A stretch of DNA of 39,894 bases from a virus: positions 1 through 39,894 of the IMG/VR virus record IMGVR_UViG_3300040770_000377; one strand, given 5' to 3'. Below the pieces are notes generated by a model. The model was not told the origin of the DNA, made no database searches, and worked only from the letters and a program-made list of their open reading frames with translations. The translations under genes were made by a program, and so were the position numbers. Below are positions 2,427-39,894 of the stretch, piece after piece. Position 1 is the first letter of the stretch; each line of letters begins with the position of its first letter.

Positions 2427-5400
2427 TTTGTAATTGTTTAAGTTGTTTCTCCAAAGAAGCCACCTTAGCCACTAGAACTTGAATGTAGTTTACAGACATA
2501 AATCCTTTATCGTCAATATTTACTGCATTAGGCATGTGTTCTTTAACTTTACTTGCATCATAACCCACTTGAATCACTCCTCCCATAGAGTTGTCTTTCC
2601 AAAGATAGGATATTTCTTCTATGTTTAATACGGAGCTTGTATGAACTTTATCTACAAGAGTTTTCAATCTCATATCCGATGGACCGTAAAAAGCTGTAGC
2701 CGTAACACTAGATGAAAAAGTAGATGTACCATCCGTATTTAATGTTAATCTATCACCTCCGTTTACTGCAAAGGCTAAAGGCTGAACTATTTCTACTGAT
2801 ATTCTAGAAGCAGCTCCAGCATTAAATTGTATATATCCAGTTCTAGCTGTATTTGCTGCATTATAAAAAGAAATATATGCAGAAGTACTTACCCCTCTAA
2901 AAAATTCTGTACTAGTAGACTGAATTAAGCCACTCATTATTCCTCCTGCTAAAGGTAGCTTTGTTGGATCAGTCGCAAACCCTGCTGTAGTTGCATAGTT
3001 TACAGATTGACCACCTATGTTACCTGAATGAATAATCTGCCTCCATTCTGCAAAAGTACTACCTGTTAATCTTCTAATATATAAGTCGTCATTATCAACA
3101 AAGGCAATTTGCTTACCATACTGCGAACCATGATTTGTTGTAAAAGTAATTACACCATTAGCATTGTTTCCACTAGCTGGTTTATTTGTAGCTGTAGTCA
3201 CAAAAGTGTCAAATCTAACAGCGTTGTCATTTGGTACTATATTTAAATCAGAAATACTTGAAGTTGTACCTATGTTAATCAGTCTTGACGAGCCACCAAT
3301 ATTAAGTGCTAAAGCTGTGCCTGTTAAACCTGTTCCAGGTCCACTAAATATTCCACCAGATGAGATAACATCTTTAGCTATAAAGTTTTCATAACCTGTG
3401 CCCGGATTATTAAATATTCCAATTCTACCACTACTTTCCATGGCTATACTTGAAGCAACAACACTTTGCCAATGGAAAGCCAGTCTAGGTGCTGCTGACA
3501 TTACACCACCCTGACCACCACCCGCGTTTTTTTCTAAGATTTGAACTGATTGTTGATAAGATGTACCTTGTGTAGTAGAATAAATTACAGGTACAGCACC
3601 AATTATATTAGTTGAATTAGATGAATTTCCAGAGATACTAATTGGCCAAGTACCAGTAGGAGTCCCTCCTAAAACAACAGTCGCTGCGGTTGGTCCAGTT
3701 GAACCTGTCAATGTTAATCCACCATAACTACCTGAGGAAGTTACAGAAGTCACACCTGGGTTATCTCCTGTATTTGTACCTGAAAGGTTAGAACCAAGTA
3801 CACTACCACTAACCGTTAAATTTGAAATCCCGTTAGCTACAGGTTTCAGTGTCATTGCATCATAAACAACACTACCTGAAGGTGTAAATCTCCATCTCCA
3901 CCAGTCGTTGTTATTGTCATCCGTTAAATTAAAATCAAAATATGTACCGTTTGCATTTATAGTGGTAGATATTGATGCTGAATCACTTGGATCAGTAGCA
4001 AATGAAATTGATGTTACACCAGTTAATGTAATGTGATTATGTGCTAAAGGAGTTCTTGCATCACTTAACCTACTATCCGTAGATGAAATCAGTGTTGCAT
4101 CTGAAACTAAAGTACTTAATTGAGCAATTGTAATTGCTGTGTGAGAAAGTAGACTATGAGAAAGAGGTGTTCTTGCATCTGTAAACCTGGAGTCATCTGT
4201 AAAAGCAACATCCTTAAAAGTTGCATATGCAGTAGCTGACCCGTAAGCTTGCTGCCAAACCCTCATTCCTATTCCTGACTTTAAAAATGTAACTAAATTG
4301 TCTGACCCACCTGTTCCATCTTGGTAACTTCTTAAATGTAAAAAGTCAGCATAAGGACCTGTATTATTATTATTCCAAGAAGTAAATCCAAATTGTAGCC
4401 TGTTTGCAGTACCGCTTGATGGTGAAATTGTTCTTTGATCTACGTTTGTTAAAAGACCTGCTATTGTAGCTGATGCTGAACTACCTGTTACGTTAATTCC
4501 CCACGAACCTATTGCTCCTGTGCCATTTGGTTGAACGGGAGTGTACGTCAACGCATTTGTAACATCAGCACTACTTAAAGTAACAGGCCCTGTTCTTGTG
4601 TTAAAACTATCTACTTTAGTACCTGTCAGGTAAGAGCCTGCAGGTTGCTTATTGTTAAAGGTGTTCCAGTCCGCAGCAGTTAAATGTCCGGCTACAGATG
4701 TCGTTGCTGCAGGCATGCTTATAACTGGTGTTAAACCTCCACTAGACAAAACAGGCCCTGCTGCACCAACTGAAGTTAAAGGAGCAAACCAATCTGTACT
4801 ATACACTTTAAACCAAGGCATAACCGTAGTACCTAAAGTATCGCTGCTCTTAAACTTGTTAGTAAAAATAGAACCTGTATTGACAGTTCCTAAGTCTATT
4901 GTAACAATAGCTGTGTTTATTTCTGAAGAAACATTTGCTCCTACTGATCTTACCCAAGCTCCTGCAGAGGCAATATATATACCATTATTCTGCGATGCTG
5001 TTTGGTCTTTAACTAACACTCTGTCGTTCGCAACAAGAACAATACCGTCGATTGTCAGAAGCCCTGAAAGCGTGGTAATATTTGCTGTCGAAGCAACACG
5101 ACAAGTAGCCTTATAAGCCGCGCCTGGTATATCAGTCATTTCTAACGTCTTCCAAATAGGGGCTGCTCCAGCTGCGGATTGTAATACTTGTCCGGCTATT
5201 CCCACCGGTGTATAAGCGTGAGCAGATCCTGTTCCATATCCGACTCCTCCTAGTGTAGCAGCAGCTGTACTATTAGTTCCTCCATTTGCTATTGCTAAGA
5301 CTCCCGCCATGGTTATTACTCCACTACCTGTAATGGAAGCAGAAAAAGTCATTCCTGTTGTTCCACCACTCAGTCCTATAGAAGTTACTGTCCCTAAATT

Positions 5401-6258
5401 TGAAGTATATCCCGCAGGGTTAGATGAGTTATATGGTGTATAACCTAAATTACCTTCTGCTATAGACCAGCTACCTACAACTTGAACAGGTGCATCAGAG
5501 AGTGCTCTGACAGTATCTCCTAAACTAACGGCAACACCGCCTAGAGTTCCTACTGCAGATATTGTCCAAATATCTCCTTTAAGAATTGCACCTCCTGCAC
5601 CGGACCCTCCAGCAGATGGAAATACATTTGTAGCAGCGCTGTAATTTCCTCTATCATCCCATAAACCCACTACTAATCCATCTGCGTATGTCTTTGCAGA
5701 ATTTAAAGTATTAGTATCAGCTGCAGCTTGTGCAGTAGAAACCGGTTTATTTGCATCAGAAGTATTATCTACATTATTTATTAATAATGAAGTCCTTGCT
5801 GTACCAACAACTAAATTTAAAGTTCCACCATCCCATTGTCTTCTCTCATTAAAAGCAGTGTTCCAAGTTGCAGCACTAGTTATCCTAGCATCAGCTAAAG
5901 TACCGGCCCAACCAACTGTAATAGTTGTAGCAGCTAATAAAGCAATTAACGGAGAACCTCCAAGGGCGAGTGTTATATTTATGTCATCCACTTTAGACAA
6001 AGCAGCTGCAATAACGTCTCCAGAGTTAGTTCCAACTAAACCAAGATCTGCTTTAAGAGTAGCCAATGTCTGCACTTCAGGAACACCTGTAGCCGCAGTT
6101 TTTCTATAAAAAACAGATGCAGTAGGCACATCAGCCATTTTAGCTAATGTAACCGCTTTATCCGCTACTTTGGAAGTGATTACAGCCAAGTCGGCAATAT
6201 CCACTGTCTGGATATCACCGTCTTTTACCTGTAAAGTACCAACTCTAGTTTGAGCCAT
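2416..6258 (-). CDS. Large tail fibre/spike with C-terminal S74 intramolecular chaperone
   Basis: This 1280-residue modular fibre carries many standard fibre motifs: NVDNTSDANKPVSTA at 162-175, a NDRVLVKDQTASQNNGIYI module at about 382-490 shared with the 679-residue neighbour, IANGGTN at 323-329, FNTRTGPVTLSSADV at 553-567, and two SR-(L/F)-x-DARTPL-x-H motifs at 689-701 and 728-742, the second followed by an HNH triplet. The C-terminal 87 residues are a peptidase S74 / endosialidase-type chaperone domain starting at S1194-D1195 (SDMRLK) and ending in a short coiled coil (VASLEKQLKQL). In this family the chaperone assists trimer formation and cleaves itself off just before the Ser. No enzyme domain is evident, so it is probably a receptor-binding or structural fibre. 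The stop overlaps the FN3 gene start; a 19 bp gap separates it from the gene upstream. Confidence 0.88.
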   Translation of the reverse strand: MAQTRVGTLQVKDGDIQTVDIADLAVITSKVADKAVTLAKMADVPTASVFYRKTAATGVPEVQTLATLKADLGLVGTNSGDVIAAALSKVDDINITLALGGSPLIALLAATTITVGWAGTLADARITSAATWNTAFNERRQWDGGTLNLVVGTARTSLLINNVDNTSDANKPVSTAQAAADTNTLNSAKTYADGLVVGLWDDRGNYSAATNVFPSAGGSGAGGAILKGDIWTISAVGTLGGVAVSLGDTVRALSDAPVQVVGSWSIAEGNLGYTPYNSSNPAGYTSNLGTVTSIGLSGGTTGMTFSASITGSGVITMAGVLAIANGGTNSTAAATLGGVGYGTGSAHAYTPVGIAGQVLQSAAGAAPIWKTLEMTDIPGAAYKATCRVASTANITTLSGLLTIDGIVLVANDRVLVKDQTASQNNGIYIASAGAWVRSVGANVSSEINTAIVTIDLGTVNTGSIFTNKFKSSDTLGTTVMPWFKVYSTDWFAPLTSVGAAGPVLSSGGLTPVISMPAATTSVAGHLTAADWNTFNNKQPAGSYLTGTKVDSFNTRTGPVTLSSADVTNALTYTPVQPNGTGAIGSWGINVTGSSASATIAGLLTNVDQRTISPSSGTANRLQFGFTSWNNNNTGPYADFLHLRSYQDGTGGSDNLVTFLKSGIGMRVWQQAYGSATAYATFKDVAFTDDSRFTDARTPLSHSLLSHTAITIAQLSTLVSDATLISSTDSRLSDARTPLAHNHITLTGVTSISFATDPSDSASISTTINANGTYFDFNLTDDNNNDWWRWRFTPSGSVVYDAMTLKPVANGISNLTVSGSVLGSNLSGTNTGDNPGVTSVTSSGSYGGLTLTGSTGPTAATVVLGGTPTGTWPISISGNSSNSTNIIGAVPVIYSTTQGTSYQQSVQILEKNAGGGQGGVMSAAPRLAFHWQSVVASSIAMESSGRIGIFNNPGTGYENFIAKDVISSGGIFSGPGTGLTGTALALNIGGSSRLINIGTTSSISDLNIVPNDNAVRFDTFVTTATNKPASGNNANGVITFTTNHGSQYGKQIAFVDNDDLYIRRLTGSTFAEWRQIIHSGNIGGQSVNYATTAGFATDPTKLPLAGGIMSGLIQSTSTEFFRGVSTSAYISFYNAANTARTGYIQFNAGAASRISVEIVQPLAFAVNGGDRLTLNTDGTSTFSSSVTATAFYGPSDMRLKTLVDKVHTSSVLNIEEISYLWKDNSMGGVIQVGYDASKVKEHMPNAVNIDDKGFMSVNYIQVLVAKVASLEKQLKQLQNGI

Positions 6259-6277
6259 TTGTCAGTGTTTTAAATTA

Positions 6278-8317
6278 TTATACGAAATAAGTTGCAATTA
6301 CATTTGAAGCAGTGAGCGGTGAGTTTCCAGCCTCGAAAGTAACTGTAGCCCCAGTAATTTGGTAATCGTTACCTGCTCCTCTTTGTTGCAAAACTCCATT
6401 CACAAAAATCATCTCTGTTGAAGCTACTGGTGTATTAGGAAGTGTGAATACAAGGTTAATTCCATTCGCTACTCCTGCAGCAGTTACACCAGCTTTATAA
6501 TTCGCGGCAGTTACTGCATCCATTTTAAGGGCAGTATTCCCGTTTAATTTTTGTATTGCAGCTAAGATAGAATCTGTAGCAGCTACAACACCTGGACCTG
6601 AAGCATACCCAGTTAACACTTTGCTTATTACAGCAGAGTTAAGTAATGTCACAGCGCCTGAAACGTTTCCTGTTCCATCAAAAGCACCTGTAGTAAACGT
6701 AGCTTCACCTGTTCCAGAAATTGTTCTACCTGCTGCTAAAGCTGTAGCCGTAGAAGCATTTCCAGTTAAAGCACCAACAAAAGATGTCGAAGTGATTGAC
6801 ACCATTCCAGCAATTGTACTTACTGTTGAAAGAGCAGCAATTGCTGTTGTTCCTAATGTAAACAATGTACCTGTTAATGCACTAGTCGCAACTTTACCTG
6901 CAGTAGTTATCTGTAACAATTTAGAATCTGCAATAGAGCCAGCAAGCATTGTGTTTGTCACAGTACCAGTATCACCAGAAGTAATCAATATTCCAGAAGT
7001 TGCAGGCATAGTAAGTGTAGTCGCTCCAGCAACTGCTGACGGTACTAATGTTACGGTACCAGAAGTAGATCCAGGAAAAACAATCGATAAAATTCCAGTT
7101 AAAGCTTGGTTAGCTGATGCTCTATTTAAAGCAACTGCTGTAGTACCAATAAAAAACGTGCTGTTACCTAAAACTGCAGCAGAGATAGTACCTGTTAAGT
7201 TAGCTGCTGTAAGAGATGTTAGTGCAGCACCATTTCCTGAGAATCCTGTTGCTGATAAAATACCAGTAGAAGGAACAAAAGATAAATTAGCACTTGAAAC
7301 TTTGGTAGGCTGATTTCCTGAAGCAGCACTTACCCAAGATAAAAATACCGGAGTAGCAGTAGCCGCGTCGTTTGTAACACCTACGTTAACTGTATTTGTA
7401 GCATTAGTTGCATTAGTTGCGTTTGTAACAAACGTTGCCCCTATAGCAGCAACAATATCTGCAGCAGAAGCCACTGATAACGCTCCAACATTATTACCTC
7501 TAAGTAAACCACCAGAAGTAAATGATACAGCTCCTGTACCACCATTCCCTACTGCAAGAGTTCCAGAAACTTCCGCCCCACCAAGAGCAATTGCTTGCGA
7601 TATAAACGCTCCAGCTCCGTTACTCTTAACAGGACCAGCAGCCAGCGTAGTGCTCAATGTTATTACAGGACTATTTCCACCTGAAGAAGAGCCTTGTAAT
7701 CCGTTTACCGTAGCTATAGAGATAGCTGAAATACCTACGCCTGCACCTGCGAATTGCGTAAATGTCATAGCAGTACCTGCAGCCCCACCAACAGTAATTG
7801 AATCATTTGTAGTTAAAACCCATGCAGTATCAGCAAGAGTAGTTCCTTCTTCTATGAACATAAAAGCATTGGCAGTCACCTCAGTATCTGCGTCAAAATC
7901 AGTAGCTCTATCCCATACACCGTTAGCTCCAGTACCGGCTGTAGTAACTACATATATACCGTTAGCAGCGCCGTTAGTTGAGTTCTTTACTAAGATTCTA
8001 TTTGTTGCAATAAGCGTAACTCCGTCAAGTACGTTAGGTGCCCCAGTTATCTGACCTCTTGTAGAAGCCCCTGCAGTTGCAGTATAAGTACCGACGTTAG
8101 CCGTTGTAGCAGTTCTCACAGATTGCTTAACATCAAGCCCTGCAGCAGAAGCTACTACAGCAAAATTTATTTGATCATCAACATACTTTTTACTAGATAC
8201 ATCTGCATCTACTAAAGGAGTAATTGGAACCTGAGGAAGCACAGAAAAAACCGCTGGCTCGTCTTTAAAGACTGAAGTAAACGGGAGCTGCTTTTTGTGT
8301 AAGATAGTATTTGCCAT
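6278..8317 (-). CDS. Tail fibre protein with NGGTG repeats and C-terminal VNG domain
   Basis: This 679-residue, Ala/Thr/Gly-rich protein has low aromatic content, typical of a trimeric beta fibre. Residues 37-50 (VDADVSSKKYVDDQ) form the common fibre motif that precedes the shaft. Residues 58-190 contain NRILVKNSTNGAANGIYVV, a module also present in the 1280-residue fibre downstream. NGNGGTGAV-type repeats (VGNGGTGAV) are near residue 255, and NATNATNATN is near 300. The last 56 residues (624-679) form a small beta domain with FVNG, QRG-x-G-NDY and a C-terminal ATY strand, also found in three other proteins of this cluster. It lacks an S74 chaperone. It lies between the S74 fibre and a 135-residue adaptor and is probably a fibre or fibre-base component. 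Confidence 0.8.
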   Translation of the reverse strand: MANTILHKKQLPFTSVFKDEPAVFSVLPQVPITPLVDADVSSKKYVDDQINFAVVASAAGLDVKQSVRTATTANVGTYTATAGASTRGQITGAPNVLDGVTLIATNRILVKNSTNGAANGIYVVTTAGTGANGVWDRATDFDADTEVTANAFMFIEEGTTLADTAWVLTTNDSITVGGAAGTAMTFTQFAGAGVGISAISIATVNGLQGSSSGGNSPVITLSTTLAAGPVKSNGAGAFISQAIALGGAEVSGTLAVGNGGTGAVSFTSGGLLRGNNVGALSVASAADIVAAIGATFVTNATNATNATNTVNVGVTNDAATATPVFLSWVSAASGNQPTKVSSANLSFVPSTGILSATGFSGNGAALTSLTAANLTGTISAAVLGNSTFFIGTTAVALNRASANQALTGILSIVFPGSTSGTVTLVPSAVAGATTLTMPATSGILITSGDTGTVTNTMLAGSIADSKLLQITTAGKVATSALTGTLFTLGTTAIAALSTVSTIAGMVSITSTSFVGALTGNASTATALAAGRTISGTGEATFTTGAFDGTGNVSGAVTLLNSAVISKVLTGYASGPGVVAATDSILAAIQKLNGNTALKMDAVTAANYKAGVTAAGVANGINLVFTLPNTPVASTEMIFVNGVLQQRGAGNDYQITGATVTFEAGNSPLTASNVIATYFV

Positions 8318-36875: not shown

Positions 36876-37919
36876 TTATTTTGTTGGGCAATAAAAAATA
36901 CCGCCATTTCTTTTGTAGTCAAATTCAACTGGGGCTTTGTCAAGCTCTCTTTGTGCTTTTCTGTACGCTCTTTTCTCCTGTCTCATCTCTTGCCTAGATT
37001 GCTCTGGACGAGCAATTCTTATAGGGTCCATAGATCTATCAGTAGTAGCTGGCTTTTTTAGTGCCATAATCTGAGCAGACACTTCTTTATCCCTTGCATT
37101 AATTGCAGCAGTGGTTTTGATTCCTCTAATTCCGTCAACGTCTTTGTCGGTAAATCCAAGACTAATCTGTGTTTGTTTCATGGCCTCAAGTGCCGCCATA
37201 GATTTAGTTCCCATGATTCCGTCTACTTTCACACCTAGCGTACGTTGTATCATTTTGTTTCTAGCAACCTCAGGAGAATCTTTACCGGCTCCCTCAGTTT
37301 TTAGTTTCCCAGCAGCGGTCTTTTCTTTAGATCCAGTAGGCATATTTTTTCTAACAATCTCTTCTTTTGCCGCATCTACTACAGCTTTACGATTAGCCGG
37401 ATCTACATATGAAGGTATCTTAGCGATAAAATCTTTAGTGGCCTGTCTGTCAACCGGTGCTACATAGCTAGGAATTTTATTTATGAAGTCTTTAGTAGCC
37501 TGTCTGTCAATCGGTGCCACATACTTAGGGATCTTAGCAATAAAATCTTTAGTAGACTGCCTATCAACAGGATTTACATACTTAGGTATTTTATCTATAT
37601 ATGCCTGGGAAGCTAAAGCCTGCTTTTCTTTACCGTCTTTATAAGAAGGTATCTTAGCAATAAAATCCTTAGTAACTTTACGATTAACTGGTGCTACATA
37701 GCTAGGAATTTTATCTATATAGGCCTTAGCGGCGGCAGCTTCTTTGCTAGATTTTTTGGCCCCAACAGGTGTGATCGATATTGGATTAGAATCTTGTGAA
37801 AGATCCTCCGGCTGATAAACAAGAGGCCTGCCTTTACCACCAAAATTACGGGGAGCTATTGGAATGATATTTCCCAATTGAAATGCCTGGACAGTTTTAA
37901 TATGTTTATAATAACTCAT
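36876..37919 (-). CDS. Repeat protein with peptidoglycan-binding-like motifs
   Basis: The 347-residue protein has three parts. (1) Six tandem repeats of ~19 residues at 66-180, built on (K)xF/YI-x-KIP-x-Y and ending P-x-(D/N)R-(Q/K); copy two is the most diverged. (2) Two half-repeats with peptidoglycan-binding style patterns, MIQRTLGVKVDGIMGTKSMA at 223-242 and LGFTDKDVDGIRGIKTTAAI at 254-273 (the 'Q-x-LGxxVDGxxGxxTxxA' pattern of PG_binding_1). (3) A basic, charged helix at 306-330 and a C-terminus ending in NGGIFYCPTK. There is no catalytic domain, signal peptide or membrane segment. It could be a virion protein that contacts cell wall during entry, or an internal protein. The function is not established. 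Confidence 0.7.
   Translation of the reverse strand: MSYYKHIKTVQAFQLGNIIPIAPRNFGGKGRPLVYQPEDLSQDSNPISITPVGAKKSSKEAAAAKAYIDKIPSYVAPVNRKVTKDFIAKIPSYKDGKEKQALASQAYIDKIPKYVNPVDRQSTKDFIAKIPKYVAPIDRQATKDFINKIPSYVAPVDRQATKDFIAKIPSYVDPANRKAVVDAAKEEIVRKNMPTGSKEKTAAGKLKTEGAGKDSPEVARNKMIQRTLGVKVDGIMGTKSMAALEAMKQTQISLGFTDKDVDGIRGIKTTAAINARDKEVSAQIMALKKPATTDRSMDPIRIARPEQSRQEMRQEKRAYRKAQRELDKAPVEFDYKRNGGIFYCPTK
37380..37724 (-). repeat. Six in-frame ~57-bp direct repeats
   Basis: These encode residues 66-180 of the repeat protein, six ~19-residue units. Nearly identical stretches recur (for example GCTACATAGCTAGGAATTTT near 37459 and 37692). The repeats are diverged at synonymous sites in places, so they are a protein repeat under selection, not a fresh duplication or a CRISPR array. 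Confidence 0.85.
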
Positions 37920-37959: not shown

Positions 37960-37982
37960 TATCATAATACTTTATTTAGTAA
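37960..37982 (-). promoter_or_regulatory. Candidate promoter, GTATTAT motif
   Basis: On the minus strand CTAAATAAA-GTATTAT-GATAGT lies 44 bp before the ATG at 37919 and overlaps the last codons and TGA stop of the T5orf172-like gene. It shares its core with four other leaders in this window. A 12-bp palindrome (AATACATGTATT at 37924-37935) lies between it and the start codon. Confidence 0.35.
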
Positions 37983-38768
37983 TAAAAATACCTCTGAGCT
38001 AAACTCCTTGCTCTTTAAATCCACCTTTCTTAATCTAGAGTCTTTATTTTTATTTTCTTTTATGATACTAGAACCCAAGGTAGTAGACAAATAAATTATA
38101 TAATTGTTCTTAATATCGTCAACAGCGCGCTCAGAAACAGACAGCTTGCTGCCTATTAAGAGCACGTCTTCTTTATTGCCAGGAAGTATAACAGACTTAG
38201 TTCGCTGCACATATCCCAACATAACTAGGACTTCAAGGCCTACAAAATAGTACCCAAACTTGTTCTGTGATAGCTCCCATTCTGTGGTGGGGTCGTTAAG
38301 TCTAATGTTTTTGTTTTCAAGAAGGTCTTGCACCAAAGAATGCAGGGTGACGTAAGGAAGGAATACTCCTTTGTCCACGGAGGCAATAAACTCGTCAAAC
38401 TTCCCTCCAGGGCGAAACCATTCAGTTGCCCCGTTTAGTTTATAGTCTTCGTTAACTATTCTGTTATCAGCGTACTTCGCGTGCAGAATATCTTCAACGT
38501 CTTTGTTGACTAAGGCTATTGGAAGTACTTTGCCCCTAACACACAGGCTCTTAAACCTGGCATGAGGGTCAGCGGTCTTGCCTATCTTATAAATATTTTT
38601 TTGAATGTCTTTAAGAACGTAGGTGTATACAAGCTTGTTTTCGTGTGATTCGTAAATAGCTTTCTCCTGGATATCGATAATATCCTTCTTTAATCCTTTG
38701 TTCTTTGCGCGTTCTGCAGACTTCTTTCTTTCGTATGAATCTGCGCTATATGTTTTTGGTTTCTTCAC
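37962..38768 (-). CDS. T5orf172/GIY-YIG-type domain protein
   Basis: The 268-residue protein has a T5orf172 (MUG113-like, GIY-YIG superfamily) domain at about 46-132: VYTYVLKD followed by IYKIGKTADPHARFKSL (59-75, the YIG-like signature with R71), LHAKYA at 95-100, and the TEWF motif at 115-118 with candidate catalytic Glu 116. The N-terminal 40 residues are Lys-rich and the C-terminal half is helical and unassigned. Domains of this type occur in phage and mobile-element nucleases or regulators, often fused to DNA-binding or antirepressor parts. Expected acts are DNA cleavage or binding; which of these applies here is not determined. It overlaps the winged-helix gene by 23 bp, so the two are co-expressed and may be partners. 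Confidence 0.75.
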   Translation of the reverse strand: MKKPKTYSADSYERKKSAERAKNKGLKKDIIDIQEKAIYESHENKLVYTYVLKDIQKNIYKIGKTADPHARFKSLCVRGKVLPIALVNKDVEDILHAKYADNRIVNEDYKLNGATEWFRPGGKFDEFIASVDKGVFLPYVTLHSLVQDLLENKNIRLNDPTTEWELSQNKFGYYFVGLEVLVMLGYVQRTKSVILPGNKEDVLLIGSKLSVSERAVDDIKNNYIIYLSTTLGSSIIKENKNKDSRLRKVDLKSKEFSSEVFLLLNKVL

Positions 38769-39528
38769 TTGAGTCGTGCTTTAGCATCTCAATCTTTTTA
38801 AGCAACACTTCAATACGTTTGTTAAGCACTACGATCTCTTCCTCAAAAGAAGCAAAGTTTTCGAAGATGTTAACTTTCGCACGAAGTTCCCTGTGCTCTA
38901 AGAGAAGTTTTTCTTCAGAATCCAACATAATGCTAGACACGTCTAGGATCTGAATCCCTTCGCCTATAGCACTATCTAACAAGTATCCCTTGGAATCTAA
39001 GTCTTCCAGAATTAGGTTTAAAGCCCTTCTCGATACACCAGTTTCTTTAACAAGAGCGGTAATGTTGCTGATGTTTGAAATTCTTTTTTCTCCTAGCATG
39101 ATGACTTTTATTATAAAAGCCTTCACGGAATGGGAGAGGTCCGGTCGAGAAATGAATGAGTAGGTTATGATTTGGTATTTGATTCGTAATTTGAGAATAT
39201 TGGAAACGTAAGAAGTGCCTATTTTGTTTCTGAAAAAGGAAGTTATTATCCCTTTATCCTCCAGGTCTTTAATGCATTTTCTTACAGTGTTCTTGCTCAA
39301 CCCCAGTACGGTAGTAAATGTTTCTAGTGAAAGAATTCTCCTGTCACCTCCTAATTTATAAGTAGAATCCAGAAACTGGTCTATATCTATAAAAGCCAAA
39401 ACGATTAGGCTTTTTGAGTCTATGTTATCGAGCTGGAAAGGAACCCTGGAATGTTTTCCAAAAGCTGTGTCTTCCTTACCTCTGTGGGTTTCTATCTTTA
39501 TCTTGTTGGTCTTATTTACTGCTGTCAT
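38746..39528 (-). CDS. Tandem winged-helix DNA-binding protein with C-terminal coiled coil
   Basis: The 260-residue protein has two winged-helix/helix-turn-helix units. HTH1 is at about 66-98 (LSLETFTTVLGLSKNTVRKC then IKDLEDKGII) and HTH2 at about 153-185 (ISNITALVKETGVSRRALNL then ILEDLDSKGYLL). Each has the classic 'recognition helix, linker, xLexxGxI wing' layout. A charged coiled coil at about 203-250 suggests dimerisation. Tandem wHTH proteins are known as plasmid/phage replication initiators (RepL-like) and as transcription regulators. It is the first gene of the minus-strand cluster, next to the divergence region, so it might control late transcription or replication. Which of these is correct is not visible. 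It overlaps the following gene by 23 bp. Confidence 0.75.
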   Translation of the reverse strand: MTAVNKTNKIKIETHRGKEDTAFGKHSRVPFQLDNIDSKSLIVLAFIDIDQFLDSTYKLGGDRRILSLETFTTVLGLSKNTVRKCIKDLEDKGIITSFFRNKIGTSYVSNILKLRIKYQIITYSFISRPDLSHSVKAFIIKVIMLGEKRISNISNITALVKETGVSRRALNLILEDLDSKGYLLDSAIGEGIQILDVSSIMLDSEEKLLLEHRELRAKVNIFENFASFEEEIVVLNKRIEVLLKKIEMLKHDSSEETKNI

Positions 39529-39658: not shown

Positions 39659-39688
39659 TTGCAAGGCAGCATATTTTTGCTATATTTG
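39659..39688 (+). promoter_or_regulatory. Bacteroidetes-type promoter (TTG-N19-TATATTTG)
   Basis: TTG at 39659-39661 and TATATTTG at 39681-39688 match the -33/-7 consensus of Bacteroidetes primary-sigma promoters (TTTG, 19-21 bp spacer, TAnnTTTG); the last base of the -33 box could also be read within TTTTG at 39654-39658 with a 22 bp spacer. The expected start of RNA is near 39693-39697, just at the following ATG. It points into the tRNA direction. Confidence 0.65.
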
Positions 39689-39693
39689 TAATC

Positions 39694-39762
39694 ATGAAAG
39701 CAATACTACTTCATATAGAACAACCACGACCGCTACTTTGTAACGGAGGAACTTCTGTATGA
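39694..39762 (+). CDS. Possible 22-codon leader ORF (speculative)
   Basis: The ATG at 39694 opens MKAILLHIEQPRPLLCNGGT followed by SV and a TGA at 39760-39762. It has no Shine-Dalgarno upstream, and the ATG lies at the predicted transcription start, so if translated it would be leaderless. It contains two Pro codons (CCA, CCG) two codons apart and lies before a terminator and a tRNA-Pro. A GGAGG at 39745-39749 sits near a second ATG at 39759 that opens only three codons. A chance ORF is quite possible. Confidence 0.25.
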   Translation: MKAILLHIEQPRPLLCNGGTSV

Positions 39763-39800
39763 TAGGCTGATTAAATAAAAATCGTCTTAGACACATATAC

Positions 39801-39829
39801 AAAATCCTTCTAGCAATAGAGGGATTTTT
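39801..39829 (+). terminator. Stem-loop terminator or attenuator before tRNA-Pro
   Basis: A 12-bp stem (AAAATCCTTCTA at 39801-39812 with TAGAGGGATTTT at 39817-39828, one T-G pair) closes a GCAA tetraloop of the stable GNRA class. On the plus strand it ends in a TTTTT run. It lies 6 bp before the tRNA, with no further promoter between, so full tRNA transcription from the upstream promoter needs readthrough. Confidence 0.75.
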
Positions 39830-39835
39830 GCATTT

Positions 39836-39894
39836 CGGGGTGTAGCGTAGCCCGGTCTATCGCGCCTGCTTTGGGAGCAGGAGGTCGCAGGTTC
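39836..39894 (+). tRNA. tRNA-Pro(UGG), 5' portion (cut at window edge)
   Basis: The visible 59 nt have the standard cloverleaf: acceptor 5' strand CGGGGTG (39836-39842), D-stem GCG/CGC, anticodon stem CCTGC (39865-39869) with GCAGG (39877-39881), 7-nt loop TTTGGGA giving anticodon TGG at 39872-39874, then variable region, T-stem GCAGG and the start of the TTC loop. The 3' half of the T-arm and acceptor are beyond the edge. It closely resembles normal bacterial tRNA-Pro. Whether it is phage- or host-derived cannot be judged from half a gene. Confidence 0.93.

Follow-up and report, generated by a model that had tools for sequence, protein, structure and literature searches.

The right end of the window, by which we mean the whole 39,894-base linear IMG/VR record that was analysed, carries an element that is very probably a ribosome-mediated transcription attenuator of a phage tRNA operon, in which a missing tRNA would turn on its own genes. 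Twenty such leader-terminator-tRNA elements were found in about nine phage lineages, mostly in phages infecting Bacteroidota bacteria.

The window element and the tRNA array behind it

Within 240 bases at the right end, all on the plus strand, the following parts are encoded: (i) a promoter of the Bacteroidota type (-33/-7) (39659..39688), composed of TTG (39659-39661), a 19-nt spacer and TATATTTG (39681-39688), (ii) a 22-codon leader ORF, MKAILLHIEQPRPLLCNGGTSV (39694..39762; ATG at 39694, TGA at 39762), whose core codons read LLHIEQPRPLL and include the Pro codons CCA and CCG, (iii) an intrinsic terminator, AAAATCCTTCTA-GCAA-TAGAGGGATTTT (39801..39828), forming a 12-bp stem-loop of -13.1 kcal/mol followed by a T run, and (iv) a tRNA-Pro(UGG) (39836..39894), which starts 7 nt after the stem, is cut at its 3' end by the contig end and matches the Rfam tRNA family with 33.3 bits; ARAGORN did not report this truncated gene. 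A sequence-only reading had already described a promoter, a tiny ORF with two Pro codons, a stem-loop with a T run and a tRNA-Pro here, and all of them were recovered in place. The divergent neighbour is a DnaD-like helicase loader or replication initiator-like gene (38746..39528, minus strand), which also adjoins the array in the relative IMGVR_UViG_3300024348_000029 (62% identity). Further upstream, a minus-strand ORF with a T5orf172/MUG113 domain (37962-38768) and a 57-bp tandem repeat of 3.1 copies (37426-37599), located in a 347-aa ORF with a weak peptidoglycan-binding match, were also observed.

The window phage is a distant crAss-like phage: its terminase is 20-31% identical to the terminases of crAss-like phages, and its terminase, portal and capsid proteins match head-and-packaging PHROGs. 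Contig IMGVR_UViG_3300040771_000296 matches the window at 100% identity in the last 4,894 bases that were compared, and it extends beyond the window; there the tRNA-Pro is complete and is the first of 21 tRNAs, all on the plus strand. These are arranged in three blocks, namely Pro Pro Glu Gln His Leu (block 1), Ala Ile Gly Met Asp Thr Val Met (block 2) and Tyr Ser Ser Asn Cys Trp Phe (block 3), where Rfam recognises the Cys gene as a tRNA and its Cys identity comes from inspection of the sequence. All three blocks are headed by a Bacteroidota-type promoter, an ORF of 22-26 codons and a terminator. The idea that the tRNA serves as a prophage attachment site was dropped, the array being visible in the identical contig. 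An HNH endonuclease gene (Pfam HNH_3; positions 7119-7598 of the L005 locus of this contig) lies within the array, at a place where the relative IMGVR_UViG_3300024348_000029 carries a tRNA-Leu(UAA) and a tRNA-Arg(ACG).

Agreement between leader codons and the tRNAs that follow

The window leader contains Leu, His, Glu, Gln and Pro codons, and the block behind it encodes tRNA-Pro, -Glu, -Gln, -His and -Leu. The layout of attenuation, previously suggested on the basis of a shortage of Pro-tRNA, is supported and extended by this agreement, but the restriction to Pro did not hold: the leader carries codons for the tRNAs of its whole block. A single CGA codon has no matching Arg tRNA in the block, possibly because the HNH gene occupies the position of the tRNA-Leu(UAA) and tRNA-Arg(ACG) of the relative. 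The leaders of blocks 1-3, MKAILLHIEQPRPLLCNGGTSV, (GTG)VNTAINIAVVIMTGADMALEGSTWYG and MKTLSCSYNSFNSWFFGPSKTIV, largely use the amino acids of their own block. The same three blocks are present in the relative IMGVR_UViG_3300024348_000029 (initiator 62% and terminase 78% identical), where their leaders are MIKVLRHIELLEQPLQCNGRNPVFGVDGL, VNSVMDIATIVRVGGIDKISSGGTVAG and MKAIVCSYSNYNFWSIRSGGTSTV. The cultured Cellulophaga phages phi4:1 and phi38:1 obey the same rule, and phage Calle_1 is close to phi38:1. Furthermore, Cellulophaga phage phi10:1 and Tenacibaculum phage Gundel_1 carry one element each, of the Tyr/Trp/Phe/Ser/Cys type; an otherwise different phage (L007) carries two in the locus of it that was read first; and one each is found in the huge phages LR745206, LR756502 and LR756501. 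Phages of 634-735 kb are among the carriers. Conservation of the Pro codons, whose loss in close relatives would have counted against the earlier proposal, was borne out in three divergent counterparts of the window leader (R.1 in the relative, p4.1 in phi4:1 and p38.1 in phi38:1).

In the four three-block phages, the own block was the best match for all 12 leaders. The core score of 11 of 18 leaders was not matched by any background ORF (3,246 other short ORFs; empirical floor 1/3247), and the window leader alone shows a modest codon match (empirical p about 0.009 against background short ORFs). Over the 18-20 elements the evidence for a codon match beyond chance is very strong, the codon and pairing tests being not fully independent owing to the homology of same-type elements across phages. 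For blocks that span nearly all amino acids, such as those of Myrna and KVP40, the codon test is without power. Neither a tRNA-Lys nor a tRNA-Arg(UCU) is encoded in block 2 of the window phage, and Lys and Arg codons are missing from the leader of that block; in three relatives both tRNAs and both kinds of codon are present. In split codon boxes, 19/21 Arg and Ser codons suit the isoacceptor present in the block (Fisher p = 3.7e-4, restricted to codons that a single isoacceptor class of the block could read).

A third array of the L007 phage came to light after the rule had been formed, through a tRNA search of the phage record. It encodes 18 tRNAs and is preceded by the leader MKFCSKHNINRTISQNKGYQGMAFWAVKEPDRS and a terminator, in this order. 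Each of the 27 codons that directly follow the start codon is cognate (27/27), and 16/16 of the block's amino acids are used; E, D, P and L are absent from the core, and their tRNAs are found in the other two blocks. For this block of 39 codons, an equal score was reached by 8/5,568 background ORFs. Short leader ORFs enriched in codons of the controlled tRNAs are a hallmark of attenuators, and the phage elements have them; in the L007 element preceding Glu-Asp (L7.B) the codon match is weak and the antiterminator strong.

Pairing between leader tails and terminators

An intrinsic terminator separates the leader ORF from the first tRNA in 20/20 elements, and a TANNTTT-type box lies upstream of 17/18 leaders. 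In most elements 3-37 nt lie between the terminator and the first tRNA, which leaves little room for another promoter. In each case the 5' arm of the terminator can pair with the last part of the leader ORF or a segment just 3' of it, through sequences that differ among elements (e.g. GGAAGGAUCU/AGAUCCUUCU, GCAAGACU/AGUCUUGC and CUGAGGGUU/AACCCUCAG). In the window, a competing antiterminator, which the sequence-only reading had failed to find, does exist in the computed pairing: GGAGGA inside the ORF end (39745..39750) pairs with UCCUUC (39805-39810). The same reading had counted it against attenuation that the ORF begins at the RNA start; a near-leaderless start is indeed present, and it recurs in other elements, with the -7 box 4-5 nt before the ATG in 7/18 elements (W.1 in the window, R.1, R.3, p4.1, p38.1, p38.3 and that of Gundel_1). 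With both findings, these objections to attenuation are weakened.

Leader tails prefer their own terminator over those of other elements (n=20, permutation p = 5e-6, z = -7.5), and single-element shuffles of the pairing of tail with terminator gave a Fisher p = 1.5e-14, the window element being among the singly weaker ones (p 0.10-0.18). Folding of the nascent RNA minus a ribosome footprint, whose size was chosen by hand, predicted that the 5' arm of the terminator is sequestered to 0.73 on average with the ribosome in mid-core and to 0.07 with the ribosome at the stop codon, in the same direction in 20/20 elements; with shuffled tails the value was 0.44 versus 0.73. The limits of the core were set by hand for four elements in these mask-folding and shuffled-tail runs. 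For the window element the predicted values are 0.63 in mid-core, 0.12 at the stop codon and 0.24 without ribosome, and in its free RNA UCAUAUAGAA is predicted to pair with UUCUGUAUGA. This protector hairpin, predicted for a leader free of ribosomes, joins segment 1, TCATATAGAA (39711..39720), and TTCTGTATGA (39753-39762) (p = 0.014); such protector (1:2) pairing in the untranslated RNA is significant in 11/20 elements, in a test for which the core limits of all elements were set by hand. In these models the antiterminator would be exclusive with the terminator and would be freed by a stalled ribosome, as in an attenuator. The codon match, the position of the terminator, the leader-specific pairing and the geometry are established at the level of sequence.

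Two other explanations of this arrangement were weighed. The layout of promoter, stem-loop and tRNA alone would permit a short terminated RNA, with the tRNAs produced by constitutive partial readthrough and the ORF incidental, which the earlier reading had offered as the simpler account. This is quite unlikely, as it predicts neither the spelling of the own block in the leaders of many phages nor the leader-specific pairing with the terminator, and leaves both unexplained. Secondly, the leader triplets match the anticodons of the block tRNAs by complementarity and could bind uncharged tRNA directly without translation, in the manner of a T-box. This is extremely unlikely: no T-box or other leader family was matched in Rfam, and the triplets lie in one frame between a start and a stop codon, a frame that is kept by leader indels between two huge phages. 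Identity with the T-box riboswitch itself, a consensus RNA with a specifier loop, was dropped for want of an Rfam match. Between two of the huge phages the leader indels located before the tail are of 3 nt, and the antiterminator and terminator are kept.

Proposed mechanism, known systems and distribution

In the attenuator proposed here, RNA polymerase would start just 5' of the leader ORF and a ribosome would follow on the leader. As long as every tRNA named by the core is available, the ribosome would reach the stop codon and cover the antiterminator arm, so that the terminator forms and the tRNA genes stay off. If any of these tRNAs is scarce, the ribosome would stall in the core, and the exposed arm (GGAGGA in the window) would pair with the 5' arm of the terminator; the resulting antiterminator would allow readthrough and transcription of that tRNA block. 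Each of the three blocks has a leader of its own, and the product would relieve the signal, which amounts to homeostatic feedback. We infer leader translation, stalling, readthrough and the direction of the response from sequence and predicted structure. The direction being derived from structure, the opposite sign could also be considered, in which ribosome passage promotes readthrough and tRNA sufficiency turns the block on; this is very unlikely, since the antiterminator arm lies at the ORF end, where a terminating ribosome would cover it.

The trp, his and multivalent ilv and thr leaders of enterobacteria are ribosome-mediated attenuators of amino-acid operons. The phage elements appear to have the sequence features of the trp, his and ilv attenuators. 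As in the enterobacterial leaders, the leader ORF is rich in regulatory codons, antiterminator and intrinsic terminator exclude each other and, for about half of the phage elements, a protector hairpin is predicted. However, the enterobacterial attenuators control enzymes for one or a few amino acids, whereas the phage elements would control the sensed tRNA itself; one phage leader surveys up to 16 amino acids, the leaders split the codon table among them, and the carrier is a phage. T-box riboswitches also let tRNA availability decide between terminator and antiterminator, but they bind the tRNA directly without translation of a leader, and the phage elements have no T-box match in Rfam.

It appears somewhat probable that several attenuators jointly survey most of the codon table as a distributed sensor of tRNA shortage, and that each turns on its replacement tRNAs only when the host counterparts vanish, for instance through tRNA-cleaving defences or host tRNA decay during infection. 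If so, phage tRNA arrays would be inducible repair operons and not constitutive supplements to codon usage. Phage tRNA arrays are described that counter the tRNA-cleaving defences retron-Eco7 and PrrC (PMC11555353, PMC10264068), and in both situations phage tRNAs would replace host tRNAs lost in infection. In the T5 case the authors report a strong promoter for tRNA-Tyr, whereas expression from the present elements would depend on the shortage itself; PMC10264068 mentions no leader or attenuation. Full-text searches of an open-access library turned up no account of tRNA genes controlled by a leader peptide, and subscription journals may hold one. To our knowledge, there is no earlier case of leader-peptide attenuation controlling tRNA genes. 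The regulatory DNA itself would state what the phage monitors, namely the availability of the tRNAs that it encodes, which makes the question directly testable in the cultured phages phi4:1, phi38:1, phi10:1 and Gundel_1. The elements would also provide a natural and compact collection of multi-codon tRNA sensors.

The carrier phages were picked by similarity and are not a random sample. A megablast search of phage records with the end of the window gave no match; alignment scans with terminase and initiator returned only the known array-bearing relatives; and genome contigs contained no terminase relative and no match to the type-3 leader pattern. Among terminase relatives of phi4:1, no tRNA genes were found in four loci (L047-L050) and at most one isolated tRNA in the three whole records searched, while the L006 locus has a single near-identical tRNA-Pro with no leader seen. 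A detector requiring a strong terminator near a tRNA found no terminator-headed block with leader in the control arrays of T4, Myrna, Syn30, Vibrio 1.244, Goe8, Phendrix, ZC08, PAU, crAss001 and LR756504, and one terminator, not significant, in KVP40; as far as this detector shows, crAss001 and the non-Bacteroidota arrays examined have tRNA arrays without the device.

Several additional features were observed in the other phages. In IMGVR_UViG_3300024348_000029 (L004:1380-1950, minus strand), a truncated tRNA-Tyr start follows the third terminator and precedes an HNH-like ORF and then a complete tRNA-Tyr, which looks like a homing-type gene insertion with partial tRNA duplication. In Gundel_1 (L031:5138-6733), the leader names Tyr, Ser, Cys, Phe and Trp, and an extra set, Pro Gln Met Asn Leu, for which no leader of its own was detected, lies 3' of an HNH gene. 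Finally, the L007 phage encodes a TROVE/vWA (Ro60-like) protein (5261-6889; Pfam TROVE E 2e-10), around which tRNA-like RNAs with the repeated motif TAGCAA...GTTACTTC are present (4620-7700); one region (7233-7344) has a weak Rfam match to YrlA (Y RNA-like), under the gathering score, and these RNAs are possibly phage Y RNAs.
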